64,000 nucleotides of DNA from Acanthamoeba sp. SK_2022b (lineage: Eukaryota > Discosea > Longamoebia > Acanthamoebidae): assembly GCA_027943245.1 (NCBI GenBank), contig JANDJZ010000013.1, positions 1 to 64,000 on the forward strand, in the 5' to 3' direction. Both the position numbers and the translations under genes were made by a program. The number at the start of each line of letters is the position of its first letter. Within the stretch, counting starts at the first letter, position 1. Positions 14,129 through 36,190 of this stretch are shown one piece after another. The notes under the pieces were generated by a model. That model did no database searches. It saw only the letters and a list, made by a program, of their open reading frames with translations, and was not told the DNA's origin.

Positions 14129-15397
14129 TCGGTATGTCACTGATATACGGCGGCCAGGGCAGGACAGCTGCGTACCTTGCCGGTGGAGCGGAGCTGAGCT
14201 GGATTGGCGGCGTGGAGCTGATGGAAGGCCTGAGCGAAGATGCCCCACTGGATGTCCTTGTCGTCCTCCCCGGCAAACGGATCCCCGCCCGGTGCAGACG
14301 CCCGGCTATCCTTCGCCTTTCTCTTCTCGGCCTCCTTATCAGCATCGGTGAACAGCAGTCTGTTGATGGTGATCGTCGTATTGCCCCGCGACATCATGGA
14401 CTTGTAGCAGGTCTGCAGAGTGTGTAGTGGCACACACGACGCACGGCGAGAGAGAGAGAGAGAGAGAGCCTCACTTAGTTCTCAGCTTCAATGGAAAAAG
14501 ATTGATTGCGCATTGCTAACGGGGAGAGCTGGAGACACGTGCCTTGAAGAACTTGGACTTGACCTTGGTGAAGATGAGAGAGCGAAGACGGGCGAGGTTG
14601 GCGGCGAGGGTGCCCCGCTGGTTTTCGGCACCGGCCAGATTGAGAAGTGGTAGAACCGACACGAGGGCCTCGTTGAAGCGGTCCAACATCAAGACGCGCA
14701 CCCGCATCTCCTCCTCGCTGATGTTGGCCAGCTTGGTGTACATCAACCTCTCGGCATCCTACCGGTGCGTTGGTTTTTGGTTGGGGGGTTTTGTATGTTT
14801 AGTCTCGCGCACTTGTGACACAAAGAGAGGGGAGAGAGGAGGGCCCACACGTACGGTTAAGCAGAGGCGGAAGGGCTGGAGGTCGTTGGGGGACACAGAG
14901 TGTTCTGAATGCAGCCGATTGACGTAGTCGGCCAGCTCCGCATCAATGGCGAGGCCGTCAGCCCCACCCACGAGCATTCCGCGAAGTCGTTCTATCTCGG
15001 CCTGAGCCTCAGGCGATGCCAGCCGTTTCCGCTTGTCGTCGCTGTTGTCATCACCGAACGTGGGCACGACATGGAAGGCGTAGCCCCAGACCGGTGGAGG
15101 GAGCGACTTCTTGGGTTTAGCTTCCTCCTCCGTCTCGTCGCCCGGGGTGCCGATTGAGGGCTGATCGCCTGCACTCTGCTGCTCTGTGGTCGGGGTGACC
15201 GGGTTCGGGGAGCTAAATGAGAACGCGCCGCCGGTGACGGGCGCCCCGAAGGTGGGCGGCGCGAAACTGAACGAGAGGGCCGTAGACGGCTGCACTTGCG
15301 CAGCGGACTCGTCGGAGCTCGGCATGGGCCGCACGTAGCGGTAGTAGACTGTATTGCCGTCAACGACGTACAGCCTGTTGCGTCGTGCAGTGTGGTG

Positions 15398-15460
<63 letters not shown>

Positions 15461-17324
15461 CGCGTCGATATATCAGCCAAGCAGGGAAGGCACCACAAAG
15501 AGGGGTGAAGCACGAACCAGGGCTTCTTGCCTTGGACTTGGCCGCCCACCTGACTGGGATCATCGCCGTTGGGCTCGTAAAAGAGCAGCTTGTTGGCAGT
15601 GGGCAACTCGCAACGAGAATCCAGGACCACCGTTAGCTCGGTCGCCCCAGGGATGTGCACCTTTCGCAGCTCGCTCCCGTCCGGCAGGGTCTGGACTGCC
15701 TCCGATCCTTCGAGACCAGCGCTCGTTGGCTGCCTCTCCTTGGCCGGATCCTGGGTCGGATGGCTCTCGCTTTCTCTGTTGGAGCATCTAATGCATCAGG
15801 GAGGGCCACGAACATGGTGCATACGCAGGCGCGCGCCACCGCAATCTCGTACCGGCACTGCGCAAAGGCTGTCTGGAGCGCGGCCGCGCGGAGGAGAGAC
15901 GTGGGAGGGCGGCTGTAGGGTTCGAGCCACCACTCCGACATCGACTGCAGGCGCACCAGAGTGGCGAACCACTCCTCGTCGTCGTACTCGCCCTTATCAG
16001 CTGCGTCGGTACTGCTGGCATCACTTGCGAAGTAGTCCCACTTCGAGCGGCGCAGCACCGCCATGAGCTCAACGAGGGTCGAGAAGTAGCGCTTCTTCTC
16101 CTCGACGCTGGGATCGGACGACTGGAAATTGCCGTCGAGTTCTGAGTGCAGGCTGTGCATGGTGGCCGACAGCCAATCCGTTGTTTCGCGGTTGGGGCGA
16201 GCCCGAGCTGTGGCAGCAGCAGCAGCAAAAGAGAGGCAGGCAGGCAGGCAGGCAGACATTAGCCAAAGGAAAGCCCTTGCTGGGTTCTGTCGAGCACGCG
16301 CGAGGGGGGCGGGGGAGTGGCGCGTACCCAATGCTTCGGCGGACGCTCCCAGGGAGTGGATGCAGTCGGTGATCAGAGCCATCATGAAGCGAATCAGGCG
16401 TATGCGCATGGGGGGTGTCACGTCAGCGGTCGTCTTGATGTGGTTTGCAAGGTGCTCGAACACCAACGGCGTGTACTTCTCTTTGATGCTCGGCGCACAA
16501 TCGGCATACACTGCAACGTGACACGTGGAGAGTATTACGTATATGCAAGGGTCAGCCGACGAACACACGAATGCAAAATACAGGGGGAGATCACGCCGCG
16601 CCATGGCGGTTGTGGCGCGTTACCCAATGTAACGAGCCAGCTGGCAAAGTTGAAGTCGGGGGTGCCCGGCTGAGAGAGGGCGGGTTTGACAAGCCAGAAG
16701 CCAGAGGTGATGCAGTAGTCGAGCAGGCTTTGAGCTAAACTGGTGTCCGCCGTGGCGCTGGCCTCCGTCTTGATCCGCGTGGCGATCTCGGTGGAGACCA
16801 CCTTGAGCACGGCGTTCCGACCCGGCTTTTGGGAGGTGGGCATCGCACCAAAGGCCGCCAGAGGACTCTTACCTGCCGGCAATGTTGATAAAGATCAAGA
16901 AAGCGGTTGGCTACACACGCTCCCCCCCCCCGATTCGCAATAGGCCATGAACGGAGGGGAGGAGGGTAAGGGTTACCGGTTCCCGCGGGAGGAGGGTCAT
17001 CGTCGGAGGGAGTCGATCCAGTGAGGTACTCGGCGGCGACGTACTTGAGGAAGGCGAGCAGCGAGTGGTAGCCCATGTTCTCAAAGGAGAAGCGCATGGT
17101 CTCGGGCCAGTGAGCGAGGAGAGAGAGCAGGGCCTGGCCGGCGTACTTGCGCAACAGTGCGGTTTCGGTGTCGATGAGCTGCACCTGGGTCTGGATCAAC
17201 TTCTGCTTGCGTGCGTGCGGCCACGGGTCGTGCACGGCCTTCACAGGCCGTCGCAGGAAGCGCTGGGGGTACCACCACTCCTGCCACACACCTTTCTCCG
17301 AATCATAGAACTCCAGCAAGGCCT

Positions 17325-17383
<59 letters not shown>

Positions 17384-20300
17384 CAAGCAGGCAGGCGATG
17401 CCCCACGTGATGTGACATATATATATATATATATAAAGTGGCGGTCAGGTGTTGTGCATGTTTTCGTGCTGCGTGCGTATATCGGTGGAACGTACAGTGC
17501 TGTTGGCGGTGTTGAGATCCTTGACGCGGCCGCACTGTCCGATTGTCTTGTCCATGGCTGCATTCCAATCCTTTCGCTGCAACAGGAAGGCGGTGTCCTT
17601 GAACACCTTGTACCACATGCCCACTTGGATGTCCTCTGCGGCGTTGCGCCCGCGCGCAGGGGCCACGACGCCTCGGTTCTTTATCGTGACGGTCTTGCGC
17701 GGCTGGCCGGCCGTCTGTTCGCTGAAGGAGAAGGCCAAGCCGCCAAACGAAGGGATAGGCGCCATTGACGAGGCATTCGCTCCCTCAGGATTGATGGTGA
17801 GCATGACGGGTGCCGGAGTAGTTGACGCAGCTGCTGCCGACGTGTCTGCCTGTGTTGCGACACCAGACTGACTTGACGCCGTCGACGATACCTCTGCTGG
17901 AGAGACCGTCGTAATAGGCATCGTTGTCTCGGTCTCCGATGATGATGATGATGATGAGGATGATGATGATGGCGCAGCTTCGGTGGCTTCGACCGTCGTC
18001 GCCAACGGCACCGCGGGAGCTGATTCTGCCTCCGAAGCTCTAGGTGCAGATGAGTCCGCAGCCTCTGCGGAGGCTGCCGCCGGCTCCAGCGCCGCCGCGT
18101 TCTCTTCCTTGCTGGCTTCGTCATTGGGGCCAGTCTTGGCTTCCTCGGAATCAGCCGTGCTCGTAGCCGTGTCTACCGCTGTGGCTGCGCTGGTGCCTGC
18201 TGGCGCTGGTGTTGTCGCGGAGAGAGACGGCTCCTTGTCGACTTGGTCGAGGGCGAAGCGATCGATGACAACCTCGTGGGCGAGAGACGTGGACTCGAAG
18301 TTGCGCTTGACGTGCTTGGCCATGTAGGCGTACAGCCCGAAGGAGAATGGCTGCTGACCAAAGTTGGCCGTGATCTTCGCCCCGTTGCTGCGGTGGAGGA
18401 TCACCGGATAGAGATCCAATCTCTGCTAAAAATATTGAGTTAATAACAGCAGCAGCAGCAGCAGCAGCAACCAGTGGTACACACAAGATGAGCGTGTGTG
18501 AGGGGCATCGTCAGTGTTTGTTGAGAGACATCGGGATCTAACCTGGTCAGCATCGAGCGTGAATGCGTCGTGGAGAAGAGTGCCGTTGTGAGTGAAGAAG
18601 ATGGTCGCCTGGTCGCGATTCCACCCGCAACCAATGATGTCGCCAGAGCCGAAGGAGTAGCCGTAGGTGGCACTTGTAGTGCCCGGTGCGCACTTGACGC
18701 CGTCGCCGCGGTAGGTGTACGCCGTGGTGAAGTCACACTCCACCTTGGATGGATCCACAAGGCAACTCGCCGTGCTGCTGCTGCTGCTCGTCTGGCGAAC
18801 CGGACTGAAACCGACTTCGACAGCACTGCAAAAGAATAAATTAAAAGAATGTATAAATAAGGGTCTCAGTTAACCGGAGAGTCCAGCAGCACCACAGCAA
18901 CAACTGAGTGGAGGTGTGGCACAAGTGAACGTACGAGCCGCCGCAGCCGGAGAGGAGGACCTCGAAGTAAAACAAGGGCACGATGCGAGGGACGGGGACG
19001 TCGGCACAGGCCGAGCTGATCGAAGCCGTGCGGAGCCCGCTGTCGATGACAACCCGATGGTCGAGAAGCTGGTGGGGGTCCTCGCTGCCGCCGAGGTGCA
19101 TGTCCCTCAGCTGTAAGGCGTTCCAGGCAGTGGGCAAGATGATAGGCACGTTGCAGTAGGGCGAGAAGGGGACAGTGTCGTTCCACGCGGTATGCGCAAT
19201 GCTGTGAAGTCGCTCCCTCAGCACGTCGCTCAATTCCTCGGTGCGGTTCACCAGGCTTACATCGGCGTTCTTCAGCGTCAAGTCCAATATCGCGCCAAGG
19301 CCGCCTTGTTCCACATGGGGCCCCATGTGCACTCGTGTCAATTAAGCTGTCAAGGGGGACGGGGGCGAGGAGGAGGAGGAGGAGGAGGAGGAGGTGATGG
19401 AATGCATAGTACCCTTCTCAACAAAGAGCGAGACAATAGACGGCTGGGTGAGGAGCGAGGCGAGAGCGATGACGCTGCACGACTTCATCTGTGCGTAGAT
19501 GGCGTCCCACGAACGGAGCTTCGTCTCGTCCAGCTGAGGTTCGGGGAGCTTGGTCTGCAGGAAGAAGATGCACACCGCCAGCAGATCGGAGCACTGGGTC
19601 GAGAAGAACGACGGCTCCAGCACCTCCTCGGGCACGGCACGCAGCATCTCGAAGGACTCCACGGCGTGAGTGGTCCTCTTGGGACAGTCCGCGTAGACGA
19701 CCTTGGCCTTACGGAACTGCGAGTCCAGGTCGATGATCACGCCCTGGCGGTACGTGAGCCCGGTCGATGGGGCGCCAGAGGTGGCGGTGTCCTGCTTGAT
19801 CGACGTCACCTCCACGGAGCCACCAACTCGCAGAGGCTCCGGGAAACCGCCTGAAGAACAACATGTCAAGCCGTTGTGTCAGACGATGGAGCGTTCAGGA
19901 GGTGGAAGGAGGGGGTGATACGATATCGTACCAATGATGGCCAGAGAGGCCAGGTCGCGCCAGGCGCGCTTCAAGAGGTGGGCCTCCTTCGGCTCGTGGC
20001 GGAGAAGGGCGGGAGCGTCAAGAGCGCTGCGAATGACCAGCTCGCGTAGCTTGTCACGCCACATGGACGACGTATTGAGAAGATGGCGCAGAAGCGCGAT
20101 CACCTCCGAAGCGAGGGCCATGGCCACGCGGGCGTCTGCTTGCTTCTCGAGGCCATCTTCTGGCCTCCACGGCGCCGACTTGTGCGCCCAGCCCGGCGTC
20201 GATGGCGTGGCAGCCGCGCCGGTCAACGACGGGGATGCAGCGCCGGTTCCGAACGAGAAGCCAGAGCCGGGCTCGCTGCTGCCGGTCGCCTTAGCCGCTG

Positions 20301-23300
20301 GCGAGGATGCGAAGCTGAAGGAGAACGTGGGCCAGCTCGTCGCCGCGCCGAACGATGAGCTCGCGGCAGCGTTGGTTGCCAAGCCCAAAGACGGCGGCGG
20401 CGAAGAGCCCAGCGAACTACCGAACGCGAGAGTAGCCGACGACGGTGTGTTGCTGTTGCTGTTGCTGTTGCTGCCGCTGCCGCTGCCGCTGAAAGGTGTT
20501 GCTTCGAGCATCGTAGCAGCTGAGGAACCCGCAGCCGGGGCGGCCGGCGCGATTCCAAAGCTGGCAGTCGGCGGTGTCCCGAATAAGCCCGTGGTTGTTG
20601 TGGAAGTGGCGGCTGGCGACGATAGCGCGGGCGAGGACCCCAACGACCCCGCTGGAGTAGGCGGCGAGGCGAGAGCGCCAAACGGAGTACTCATAGAAGG
20701 CGACAGCGAAGACGACGACGACGACGACGACGACCCGAACGTTGCTGCCGGTGGCGAGCCAGAGCCTAAAGCCAAGGAGGAAGCGAAGGATCCGAACGAC
20801 GATTGGGACGGGGTCAGGCTGGCTCCGAACGGTGAGGCAAGAGGAGAGCCGGTCGTGGCGGTCGCCGGCGTCCCGAAGAGCGATGCGCCAGGAGTAATGC
20901 TACCAATCGCAGCGGTGGCGAGGGCGCGCTTCGCACGACGAGGCGAGCGCGAGCCCCGGATCGGGCCTCCTCCCGGGCTGAGCTCGTCGAGCGCGGACAT
21001 CAGGTCCACTGCCGACGAGGCGCTCGCTGGTGAAGCAGGATCAGCGGTCGTCGTCGAGATGGGGCTCGCGGCCGTTGCGGCAGCGCCATCTTTGGCGGGC
21101 GACATGGCGGCCTGTGCGACTGCTGCCCCACCGAAGCTGACGCGCAGCTTGGAGGGCGTATCCGGCGCGGCACCCTTGGGCTCTGGTGGGTTTGTGGCAG
21201 GGACGAGCACGTCGGGATGGTGGCGCGAGATGTAGGCAAAGGCAGAGGCCAGGGTCTGAGCCGAGTCAACTGAGGTGACGGGGCACACATTGCAGAGCGC
21301 GGCGCCGATCGCGTTGAAGAAGAACGACAGGATGCCCTCGTCAGCCGTGCCTACGGCTGCCGACCGCAGCTGCTGGAACGGGTCTGTTGCAAGGTTGTTT
21401 TCCGCGGCCGTCGTCGATGACGGATAGGTGTCCTCGATGATGAGACGCCACAGGTAGTCCAGTCGCTCCGGCCGCACGAGGGGCAGAACGTCGCGCAGAA
21501 GGCGAAGGGCGATTCGCTGGATGCGCGGAGTGCCCACGAGCACCAGCGAGAGCACGGTCTGCATGTTGTGGCTGTTCTCGGCGATGTAGCGCAGCACGGC
21601 GACAGAGTGTGTGAGCGGGTGGAGCAGCTTGATCATCTTGAGGCACCGCCTCTCCACGTGGTCGAATTCCTTCCAGCGGTCCAGCGGGATGACGTGCGAC
21701 GGCCAGCTCGTGCCGGGGCGAGAGCTTGGCTGAGCGAACGGGTCGGGCACGACCGCTGGGCCCGCCTGTGACGATAGCGCCTGCGCCCCGGCTGCTGCTG
21801 AGGGTTGAGATCGGAATACGCGGAGGCTCGTACTGAGCTCGTTGAAGATGAGCTCCATCATGCGCTTCTGGAGCTCACCCAGCGCGGGCAGTTTGCCGCT
21901 ATCATCAGAGCTCTGATCGACTGACTTCTGCAGCCCTTTCGCAGAGGAGGAGCCCCCCTTGATGGCTGCCACACGCTCAATGAGGGCGGCGCGGTCACCG
22001 GTGTCCTCCGCATCGCTCTTCCTAACCCGGGTAGCCACGCAGTGGAGCGTGAGCAGGCTGAAGGCCAGCCACGCGGCCTTGGTCACCTCCTTCTTGTCGG
22101 CCAGCTCGGAGTTGAGGCTGAACGACGCCAGGGCGAACCCGCCCTCTGGAGACCGCGACTCGGCCTCCTGCGAAGAGCCGAGGGCGGTCTCCTCGCAGAT
22201 GAGCTTCTTGAGCGTGGGCAGGATGCCCACCTTCTGCACGAACCCGTAGTCCTCCTCGCGGAACCCGAGCGTCCACAGCTGAATGAGGAGCACCCGCACG
22301 ATCGGCTGGATATCTTTGGAGCGCAGAAGGGCCGCCAGCTGCGTGTAGAGAGCTTGGAAGGTCCGCACCAGCTCCTCGCGGGTACCGTTCTGGCATGCCT
22401 GCGCCTGGTGCATGTAGTGATAGCTCTCAAGCGTAGTCACGTCGGAGAGGCCGCCGCCGCCGCCGCCGCCTGACGTAGCGGTGCTACCTCCAGGCTTGAG
22501 CCCTCGCAGGAGCGCGAGCAGGAGATCGTACTGCACCGAGCGCAGACTGACCTGCGTCAGGAGGTCGTTCATCGTGCGCAGGCCCTCGATGCGGCCCTGC
22601 GCTCTCTCCTCACGGCGGCGCATGCCCTTGAGCAGGCCCGATGGCTCCAGCTTGTCGTCCATGACGAAGGCCACGATCGCATCCGAGATCATCGAGTCCT
22701 GCGTGGGATCGATGGCGTTGGCCGACTCGGCCTCCTTGCTCCGATCGCGGAACAGCTTCCACATCTTGAACGACTCCTGCACGCGCCTCTGGTTTTCGTT
22801 GGTGTCCTTGCGCTCCAGTAGCCGTCGCCGTCTCTCCGTGGGTGATGCGATCAGGTCGACACCAAGCACGGTGTCCTCGGTCACGCTGTCGCCGCGCGGC
22901 CTGCTTCGTTTGAGGGTGCCCGTGGATCGCGCACGCAGGATGCGGGGTGTGTTGCCCGCCGTGCTCTCAATGCTCGACGTGAGCGCCTTCCGCTCGGCGG
23001 CGGCGGCGGCGGCGGCGCCCTTCTTCACCAGTGTGGACGAGGTGGAGCGCGAGAGGCGATCGCGTTCATCAGGTTGCTCCGCCTGCTGCTCGCTTGTTTT
23101 CGCTTCAGGGACGCGCACGGTCAACAGGAATTGGATCTTCTTCAGCACTGGCCCGCACACCTGCTCGTACACCGCGCTCGTGCTGCACACCACAGAGAAC
23201 ATGTGTCAGCGTACGTAGACATAGGAGAAGCAGGCGGGAGAGGGAGCTTATGTATACCTGATTTCGGCGTCGCCTTCCTTCTGAGCGAGCCTGTGCTTGT

Positions 23301-32342: not shown

Positions 32343-32971
32343 TCACTGGCCAGAGACCGCGGAGCGGGCGGCATCGTAGGCGCGGTCGAGCGGCGCTGCG
32401 GCGAGGCCGGCAACCATACCCTTGATTCCCTCCTTGGGCATATTGGGGTGCGGGTGCGTGGGCATCAGGGGCCTGTTGCTCTCCATCTTGTTGCCTAACT
32501 CCATCAGCTCGTTGGAGTCGATGTACTGCCGCAGTAGGGGCAGCAGCTGGCCTTCCTCGTGCTGGATGTGGGCGTAGAGGTCCAGGATCATAGTGTTCAT
32601 CTTGGCGTCGTACTTGGCCTGGTCATCCTTCACGTTCATGCTCAGCAGCTCATCGAGCATGCGCTCCACCTTGAAGTGGTCCTCGTAGGCGTCGTGGGCC
32701 AGATTCTTGCCCTCCGGTACGCGATCTCGCAGCACCGGATAGACGAGCGTTTCCTCCAGGGACGAGTGCACGCACAACTCCTTAATGAGCGTGTGAGCCA
32801 GCTCCTGCTTCTTGCTCACATCGTTGCTGCTCATGTACTGACTAGAGGTGGTGGGCCCCACGCCACGTTGAGACAACGCGTGAGTGAGTGAAACCAAAAA
32901 CAAAAACAACAAAAAACTTAAAAAAAAAACATGTGGCACCAGCCAGTCCGCACACCTGTAGAGACCCTTAA

Positions 32972-33031
32972 GGACGCGGTATGGGCAAAAAAAAGAGAAC
33001 CGCAGGGTCGTGGGCACCCATCACGATTTGA
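32972..33031. repeat. Left terminal inverted repeat of the TTAA element
   Basis: Sixty bases beginning GGACGCGG that pair with the right terminal repeat with one mismatch, near base 28 of the repeat. It includes an A8 tract and a GGGTCGTGGGCACCCATC core. Confidence 0.95.
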
Positions 33032-33121
33032 GCTATGCAGCATAAAAAATGGGACAGAGCAAAAGTTTGAACAATGTGAATTGTTTATTGCCCCACCGCT
33101 CGGGTTGCGTCATCACGAGGG

Positions 33122-36034
33122 TCAGGTAGCCTCATCAGCATCCACGAGGGGCGGTAGGGGGGGTACCAACTCGTTGTCTTCGCTCTCCACCCGTCGTCGT
33201 TTTGGTGGCTGGGCGTCAGTAGCTGCTGTTGCTGTTGACTGGCTCGGTGGTGCGTTGGGGCATGGTTGGCTCCTTTTACGAGGGGTCGCACGAGCGTGTG
33301 GATCCAGCAATCTGGTGACGAGCTCCTCTTTGCGCCCACTCACCATGATCCCACGCTCCCGGCATTTATCCTTGAGTTCCTTTACAGTGAGGCACACGAG
33401 TTGTCCCTGCCGTGGATCTTGAGCCGCGGCTTCCCTTGTGGCCGTTTCCTTTGTGGTTTTGGCCTTAGGTTAGGTAGCTGTCCACCCAAGACACGCCAAG
33501 CAAGACAAAGAATGAGTCGTACCACAGAAGGACCACCCTTCACGTGGTCTTGGACTTGTTTGAGCCAGACGTCACGACGACCAGGAGACATAGGCTTGAG
33601 GTTGTGCACGCCCATATAAGCTTTCAAGTGGTACACAAGCACTAACATGAAAGTTAGTAGTGAAGCTCAAGGTGTTATTGTGCATGGAAATGTACATTCT
33701 CCTACTCGGTGGCTACACACACACTGGGCAACCCAGGCTGCTTGTTCTTCAGGGCTTTCTTGATAAAAGACCTTCTTTTGTCTTTGTGCACAGTCTCGGC
33801 GCCTGGCTAGAAAGGAAGCTTAGTGGATACATGTACACATGGAGGGTGGTCTCAAAAGAGTTCAATACCTGTTTCAGCAATAGCTCTGCGTTTGAGTTCT
33901 TGGCGTCTGAGCCGAACTCGTGCTGTGCGGTGGCGGTTGTCTCGTTTTTTACGCGCGGCCAAAATCTTGAGCCACCGTGCGCGCTCAGAGCAGGAGATGT
34001 CAAGGCCAACATGTTGAAAGAGGTCAATCAAGGCTGAGCTCTCTTTGCCTAACACAAACGATAAGATATGAGAATAAAGTAGGACCACCAATGAGCACAT
34101 ACCTTCATTCCATTCCAGGATGCCCATGTCAAACAATGCAGCATACATGATTGTCCAATTTCATTCCTTGTTGACCCTCTTCCTTGCTGTTCCATTGAAG
34201 GACTCAATCTGGATGGTGCTGTGACCATGGATGTACCGTTGGCAGTCATCCAGATAGCCATTGATAAGCTGTTGCAGTTGATCAAGGGCTTCCTTATCTT
34301 GGACAGGATCAGCGCGGACAGTAACCTTTCCAGGTGGGTGTGTACACCCTAACATAGTTAGGAGAGTGTTTGGTTAGTATTTTGGAGTGTTTTGTACAGA
34401 TCGTTTGGGTTTGGTGCTTACCTTGATGGGATACATCGGTAATATGTGGGATGAATGCTTTCATGTGCCCACAAAAAGCTTTTTCTTGTTTGGCATGCTG
34501 TTTCACTCCTGTCATCACACTCACATATTCAGCATGAGCTCAACTTCACATATATGTGGGAAAAACGTACCTAGCAAAAAATGTGCCTTCAAAGGTTGGG
34601 CAAGCTCTGCCACCTTGGGGTGAACTGTTGCCAGAACAGCTATATTCTTAAGCAAGCTTTTGGCATAGTGGTTGGGGTCTCGGTTGATGGCTACTGAACG
34701 GCCAAAGTGTTTGGTCACCAAAGATCCAATTGTAGCATCACCATCAGCTGTTACAGAAGAGAGTGATACGCCACAATCCTGCGGCCAAAAATCTACAATG
34801 AGACGAGGCATAAAAAACAACAAGGAAAGAAGGGGAGCACCTTCAGATGAAGAAGAACCTGTTCAGAGGCATCCCCTTCAGCAGTACTTGATGTTCCCTT
34901 ATAAGTACGCAAAGGGTGTTGAGGAGCTGATGATGCTGTGTCTTTTAGCAAATGTTGACGTGCAACAATTCCCCCTGAACCTGCATCATTTTGACATCAA
35001 TATTGACCACCTTTTTATCTGTGGGGGAAAGTACCAGCATAAACGTCTTGAACAAGGGTAGTGGTTTCGTTGGCGTGCCAGGTACGACTCGAATAGGTTG
35101 TGTCGATGGCCACGTCTTTTGACGTGCGGCAACTTAAAATTTTCATTTGCTGCCAACAAGACAAGTCAGTTGCCGCACAAACTGCAGGCACCAGCTAAGA
35201 AGGTCTGGTTAGTGATGAGCCATTGATACAACAAGAGGCAAACGTACAAGGTCTTTCATCAGCTGGGCGTAGCAAGAGCGGGAAATTGGTGGTGCGCCAC
35301 CAGCAAGCCCCCACACTGATTCGAGGCGCTCATAGCCCAAGCCGTTCAGCCCCCAGGCAAGCACCAGTCGAGTAGGAGCATCACGGCGGTGGTAGTTGGT
35401 CTTTGTCCGAGTAGTTGATTCAAACTGATAGGAGAACGTGCAGTACTCCATTTCACAACACACGCTCACAATAAAACCCCCATTCTCTGTCTTCCACCGC
35501 TCACAAAAGAGGTTGGTAAGATGACATTCTGGACACGCCAGGACCGCCACTAATGAGCACAGTTGATCTGCCTCAAGGAGCGCCCATCGGTAGGGAGCCT
35601 TGTCACGAGTCCCTACCAATTTATGGTCAGTCATCGTCCAAATGAGGGCAAGGTTCTTTTGCACCTGATCGGGTCTGGCGTGACGGTGACAAACTCCGGC
35701 TACGTTGCCGGGTACGCCGGTCCTTTCTTCGATGCTCCTCCTGTTGTCTTTGTTGTTCTTCTGCTTCTTGCCTCTTCTCTTCTTGTCTGAGCTTGGCTAA
35801 CTTCCTCTCTTTCTCCTGGGCCCGCTCCAACTGCCGTCGTTTGTTCCTGCGTTCTTGTTTTTTTTGCTTGAGTTCAATGGGGTCCACGACTTTGAATCGC
35901 CTCAACTTCGCTTCTTCAGCCATCGTCACACAGATCCAGCAGCCTCTCTGTCTTTTGTCCGCAAAGCGTTGGGCGTTTGCCTTGTGCAAGTCCTTCGTGG
36001 AAGAGTTTTTGACTCCGAAAAACGTATTGGACAT
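33122..36034 (-). pseudogene. Mutator-like DDE transposase with C-terminal SAP domain, one in-frame TGA
   Basis: The ATG at 36032-36034 begins a basic coiled-coil N-terminus. Hand-spliced exons are 36034-35665, 35549-35248, 35194-35035, 34980-34841, 34778-34571, 34508-34422, 34348-34103, then 34048 onward to the TGA/TAG region ending at 33122. In order: a Cys-rich domain (ACPECHLTNLF, then EMEYCTF, LAWGLNGLGYERLESVWG) like the N-terminal part of PF20700-type Mutator transposases; first Asp in VAIDTTYSSRTWHANE; second Asp in TADGDAT followed by DPNH, matching the D-x2-H signature of MULE-type enzymes; conserved ESFNG; and a SAP DNA-binding domain near 33390 (TVKELKDKCRERGIMVSGRK). All joins keep frame except for a TGA at 34161-34163, just after ESFNG. 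That codon makes this copy probably defective. Confidence 0.82.
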
Positions 36035-36077
36035 TCTTGCAATATCACGCCGGCCAACACCATTTTAACTGCATAAT

Positions 36078-36137
36078 TCAAATCGTGATGGGTGCCCACG
36101 ACCCTGCGTTTCTCTTTTTTTTGCCCATACCGCGTCC
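36078..36137. repeat. Right terminal inverted repeat of the TTAA element
   Basis: Inverted partner of the left repeat, ending ACCGCGTCC immediately before the flanking TTAA at 36138-36141. Confidence 0.95.
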
Positions 36138-36190
36138 TTAACCTTCTCGTGGTCCTTGATGATGAGGTCAATGCAGCTCTTGGAGGTCAT

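Follow-up and report, generated by a model that had tools for sequence, protein, structure and literature searches.

A TTAA-flanked DNA transposon, probably of Kolobok type, within a hemerythrin-like gene of (probably) Acanthamoeba

MuDR/MULE transposons usually generate target duplications of 8-11 bp. In the window (the whole stretch of DNA that was analysed, 64,000 nucleotides long) an element with a MULE-like DDE transposase lies between two copies of TTAA, which raises the question of what kind of transposon it is. The sequence-only reading had suggested an undescribed combination. As far as the available part of the source goes, however, MULE-like motifs together with TTAA equal the published diagnosis of the Kolobok superfamily (PMC9587614), and we consider it very probable that this is a cut-and-paste DNA transposon of Kolobok type in a host that is probably Acanthamoeba; published characters, and not a tree, place it in Kolobok.

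The element proper occupies 32972-36137 (3,166 bp) and is flanked by one TTAA on each side; the span of 32968-36141 originally proposed was thus confirmed, with both TTAAs counted in. The features of the insertion are as follows.

32968..32971, no strand: left TTAA copy, the 4-bp target duplication (exactly 4 bp duplicated; fit of the host Hemerythrin model)
32972..33040, plus strand: left terminal inverted repeat, starting GGACGCGG (69 bp, 3 mismatches against the right repeat)
36069..36137, minus strand: right terminal inverted repeat (repeat search and comparison with the left repeat)
36138..36141, no strand: right TTAA copy (exactly 4 bp duplicated)
32346..32967, minus strand: part of the hemerythrin-like host gene beyond the insertion, containing one intron (Pfam; splice by eye)
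36142..36190, minus strand: exon 1 of the host gene as far as the insertion (MTSKSCIDLIIKDHEK plus one further base; PF01814 Hemerythrin once joined)

The inverted-repeat ends are real: a repeat search found arms at 32961-33040 and 36069-36148 that are 93% complementary over 80 nt, and inside the TTAAs the repeats measure 69 bp and differ at three positions. The termini of the element are GG..CC. Elsewhere in the genome (44.9 Mb in 1,129 contigs), the matches listed include a single window-type end, at 88-91%, on contig C1091. One of the genes of this genome, for profilin, aligns to profilin II (PDB 1f2k/2acg) along 125 residues at E 1.3e-74; these are Acanthamoeba entries, which makes Acanthamoeba the probable host.

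The element interrupts a coding exon of a minus-strand hemerythrin-like gene, and its ends had been considered fixed by restoration of the host reading frame. The frame alone is insufficient for this, since removing TTAACC preserves it too; indeed, three joins of the host gene (TTAA kept once, two codons fewer and two codons more) are all in frame. With the element removed and TTAA kept once, the host protein scores 55.9 bits against the Pfam Hemerythrin model, in an alignment that begins at residue 7. Dropping two codons (CC as the duplication and TTAA as part of the element) lowers this to 49.2 bits, with an alignment from residue 27 only, and adding two codons gives 51.6 bits from residue 8. 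Because the model scores highest with TTAA once, TTAA as the duplicated target is favoured, by a modest margin, and exactly 4 bp are then duplicated at the window element, as had been claimed. A search of the whole genome with seven joined flanks returned no empty site: 14 of the 15 matches were the flanks themselves, and the remaining one (86%, on C1110) lay in sequence beyond one element and did not span the junction. Searching the genome for a paralogue of the host gene gave one weak other match only, and no paralogous empty site.

The TTAA duplication recurs among relatives in the same genome. A 113-aa exon of the transposase matches at least 19 places, window included, that is, at least 18 further ones. 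We studied 20 related loci (18 other exon matches and two places found by DNA) and searched their flanks for inverted repeats without requiring TTAA. Long repeat pairs were found in six (L025, L030, L032, L033, L034 and L039), the exact ends of L030 being set with the pattern TTAAGGG, while the other 14 showed no long repeat pair around the match. Together with the window this gives seven elements with both ends, among 21 loci examined. All seven carry a TTAA duplication of exactly 4 bp and GG..CC ends, and duplications of 8-11 bp, which were looked for, were found in none of them. If TTAA is instead assigned to the element, no further duplication is left in six of the seven, and 2 bp are left in the window. 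Several of the other loci have single TTAAGGG... ends close to the match, found there by a search for that very pattern. When 16 loci were spliced-aligned, only L025 and L027 proved free of stops and frameshifts over almost the full length.

Two arrangements were seen alongside these elements. An 814-bp non-autonomous element, possibly MITE-like, lies between TTAAs at C477:67827-68648 (L046) without this transposase; its TTAA is not independent evidence, since it was found with the pattern TTAAGGGNNCAGTATGG. On C1110 (L030:6588-6610), a second element appears to begin (GGGAGCAGTCTGG) immediately after the right TTAA of the first, so that two abutting elements may share one TTAA there.

The motifs VAIDTTYS, DGD, DPNH and ESFNG, noticed before any search, all fall within one spliced minus-strand gene, whose main features are these.

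33869..36034, minus strand: transposase gene, main spliced part (GT-AG joins read; introns of relatives)
36034-35665, 35612-35248, 35194-35035, 34980-34841, 34778-34571, 34508-34422, 34348-34103 and 34048-33869, minus strand: its exons
35102..35104, minus strand: first catalytic D, in VAIDTTYS (D in 10 of 11 rows, H in L029)
34737..34745, minus strand: DGD, with the second catalytic D (invariant in 7 of 7 rows)
34668..34679, minus strand: DPNH, the C/DxxH motif (D, P and H identical in all seven rows)
34338..34446, minus strand: H-x5-H-x2-C-x-H finger, split by an intron, between DxxH and E (ligands invariant in 7 of 7)
34203..34205, minus strand: third catalytic E, in ESFNG (invariant in 7 of 7)
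34161..34163, minus strand: in-frame stop of the window copy (a stop also in L041; a sense codon in L025, L027 and L032)

The reading as a DDE-type enzyme with DPNH was upheld by alignment A1, in which the DGD, DPxH and E columns are invariant in all seven rows (the window, five relatives and the database protein P0001, which is partial and without the first-D region). The first D was counted in a 12-row alignment, of which 11 rows have a letter at that column. In L027 the finger has x7 where the window has x5; with its HHCH ligands, it is predicted to bind zinc. The stop in L041 occupies the same codon position as that of the window.

The first exon of the window was placed by similarity to P0002, and its start codon is provisional. 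A spliced-alignment program returned the identical seven core introns for the window, from a query derived from the GT-AG joins read here, and relatives have GT-AG introns at corresponding places (L027 has seven of them, L025 and L034 have six each). A start of exon 2 at 35664 was rejected, because comparison with P0002 and the relatives places 35664-35613 in an intron; the window row accordingly opens with 17 residues that are non-coding. The row with these 17 residues was the one used in A1, in the hhalign profile and in the Pfam and protein-database searches.

According to Kojima and Bao 2022 (PMC9587614, in the part available to us), Kolobok elements make TTAA duplications and have 5'-RR..YY-3' ends, unlike piggyBac. 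A C/DxxH motif between the second D and E is common to Kolobok, hAT, P, MuDR and Dada, and almost all Kolobok lineages, Kolobok1 not among them, have a zinc finger between C/DxxH and E, whose third Cys is extremely conserved and which MuDR, P and hAT lack (PMC9587614). The window family shows every one of these characters: the 4-bp TTAA duplication in all seven elements, together with the score of the host model; RR..YY ends as GG..CC, again in seven of seven; and, in all seven aligned proteins, an invariant DPxH and E and an HHCH finger with invariant ligands, third Cys included. On account of these four characters we file the element under Kolobok, probably as a further branch rather than as a new kind. 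It also resembles Xenopus Kolobok and T2 MITEs in its TTAA flanks, its H2CH motif and its purine-rich ends (AG in the frog), as described in the part seen of PMC6004289.

In other respects the family departs from the superfamily as described there by Kojima and Bao (PMC9587614): its N-terminus is, by eye, charged and coiled-coil-like, its gene is spliced, its C-terminus is SAP-like or C2H2-like, and its host is amoebozoan, Amoebozoa being missing from the host list in the text available. A THAP domain, usual in frog Kolobok proteins next to the H2CH finger (PMC6004289, in part), was found neither in the N-terminal exon of the window (Pfam, E up to 1) nor in P0002, nor in the seven A1 members (Pfam, E up to 10), other N-termini having been read by eye only; in the accessible portion of PMC9587614, THAP is not given as a character of the superfamily. 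A literature search returned no paper with both Kolobok and Acanthamoeba, and broader terms gave none on this element. What is new is probably a lineage of Kolobok type that lacks THAP, has variable SAP-like or C2H2-like C-termini and lives in a host group absent from the published list.

The terminal parts of the protein vary more. The N-termini of the window, P0002 and the relatives are long, charged and coiled-coil-like, several with an RSRSxSP-like motif (by eye). Downstream of the core the window has the following.

33700..33806, minus strand: probable further exon (ARRRDCAQRQKKVFY..., 3' limit provisional; aligned in L025, L027, L032, L034, L037 and others)
33553..33630, minus strand: probable helix-extension-helix (HeH/SAP-like) motif HLKAYMGVHNLKPMSPGRRDVWLKQV (read by eye alongside the frames downstream in relatives)
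33305..33391, minus strand: canonical SAP near the C-terminus (PF02037, 39.2 bits, E 4.9e-10)

The C-terminal SAP domain reported earlier is thus present; against the rest of the genome this part gave three weak matches only (E 9e-5 to 1e-3). The probable HeH/SAP-like piece of the window has no Pfam match, nor does the helix-extension-helix of L025 and L041, and in two other relatives Pfam sees it weakly and below cut-off (HeH/LEM, E 4.9e-5, in L032; SAP, E 0.02, in L034). C2H2-like fingers lie downstream of the core in L032, L034 and L041, where the window has SAP, at E values of 3.2e-4, 3.7e-4 and 0.045, below the Pfam cut-off. The C-terminal DNA-binding domains may thus have been exchanged among members of the family.

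The enzyme had also been described as having a PF20700-like N-terminus. The relationship to PF20700 holds through the relatives, but the window protein itself reaches no transposase model in Pfam, and the similarity covers the core and not the N-terminus alone. The PF20700 cut-off of 26.5 bits is exceeded by L027 (36.4) and L032 (45.3), over profile positions 44-350 of 357, whereas the other five A1 proteins (the window, L025, L034, L037 and the partial P0001) have no Pfam transposase match; PF20700 is the sole transposase model among the Pfam matches of the seven members (E up to 10). With hhalign, the element family aligned to six PF20700 proteins at Prob 95.6 and E 1.2e-8 over 316 columns, with 15% identity, against a Prob of at most 0.37 for the decoys (one reversed and 20 column-shuffled). 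Both groups share the core order D, GTSxxxEG, D(x)D, DPxH, Cys/His cluster and E. In 5.8 billion proteins, with the best 7,998 candidates scored each time, a single-sequence search found two relatives and a profile search three, namely a PF20700 protein (E 1.6e-4) besides two close relatives, both partial. Viral contigs were scanned once for the element family and once for PF20700 proteins, with two short peptide patterns per scan, and none of the 16 and 44 pattern matches was confirmed; solved structures gave one match only (E 0.42), taken as chance. We found no literature source equating PF20700 with Kolobok, the Pfam label being 'Mutator-like'. Three open PF20700 genes of another group lie in the same genome (C645:15855-16823, C364:15136-15873 and C191:80818-81654), and no convincing pair of inverted repeats was found around the one on C645 (searched over 14500-21999).

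That Pfam label, and a DDE core with the DxxH that is common to MuDR (PMC3706591, in the part available), would suit a genuine Mutator (MuDR) lineage in which TTAA targeting arose separately from Kolobok. We regard this as quite improbable: the 4-bp TTAA, the RR..YY ends and the DxxH-to-E finger are all on the Kolobok side, MuDR is finger-free in that interval according to the available text of PMC9587614, and none of the seven elements has the longer duplication, 4-10 bp being given for the group of superfamilies as a whole in what was accessible of PMC3706591. An independent superfamily next to Kolobok, within the hAT/P/MuDR/Kolobok/Dada group, seems very improbable to us, as every testable Kolobok character of PMC9587614 is present and Kolobok itself comprises many diverse lineages in that account (seen in part), even if the handful of database relatives, the lack of THAP and the unusual N- and C-termini speak for it. 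A piggyBac or Sola3 element would explain the TTAA duplication and is otherwise hardly credible, given RR..YY ends, which PMC9587614 contrasts with piggyBac in the part seen, and the lack of any piggyBac model among matches of the seven members at E up to 10, a range in which HMMER filters drop most weak matches.

In a bolder version, which we think unlikely, the amoebozoan group is a separate, deeply branching lineage, either basal to Kolobok or next to it, in which the TTAA machinery is retained while the DNA-binding part at the C-terminus is exchanged (SAP-like, extra SAP or C2H2-like). Were it true, it would suggest that many PF20700 'Mutator' proteins are Kolobok relatives, and TTAA targeting would have a single origin within this section of the MULE-like group. 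The plain Kolobok placement that we prefer would extend a TTAA-targeting superfamily to Amoebozoa, would connect Kolobok characters with a family that Pfam calls 'Mutator', and would provide divergent, clean-ended elements for the study of TTAA targeting outside piggyBac; superfamily definitions are not overturned.

What the sequence shows is an element between two TTAAs that ends in GG..CC, has long inverted repeats, encodes its DDE transposase in one spliced gene and has divergent relatives whose ends are the same. From the clean duplications and from what is known of the family, the DDE core probably inserts the element into TTAA by cut and paste. In such a scheme the Cys-rich N-terminal region of the transposase and its C-terminal SAP-like or C2H2-like parts would bind the inverted repeats, and the RNase-H-fold core (D, D, E) would cut at the GG/CC ends, DxxH and the HHCH finger being structural. 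The cut ends would be joined to the target across a 4-bp stagger in TTAA, and gap filling by host repair would leave a TTAA on each side. The window copy alone is probably no longer autonomous, because it sits in a hemerythrin-like coding exon and a stop interrupts its transposase.

Some copies also differ mainly through CpG loss. Between L032 (C965) and L033 (C363), which are 97% identical, 94 of the 99 differences are transitions, and 82 oppose CpG to TpG or CpA; the latter class makes up 29 of 49 differences between L030 and L031, and 12 of 43 between L026 and L028. The ratio of observed to expected CpG is lower in the element than in its flanks for the window, L025, L030, L032, L033 and the C477 element, equal in L039 and higher in L034. 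The pattern is consistent with methylated CpG having decayed in some of the copies. Repeats in Acanthamoeba are reported to carry cytosine methylation, which on DNA transposons was not enriched overall, although some inserts were highly methylated (PMC12344493, in the part available). In the C1091 end (C1091:4451-4540), all five CpGs of the window end are lost.
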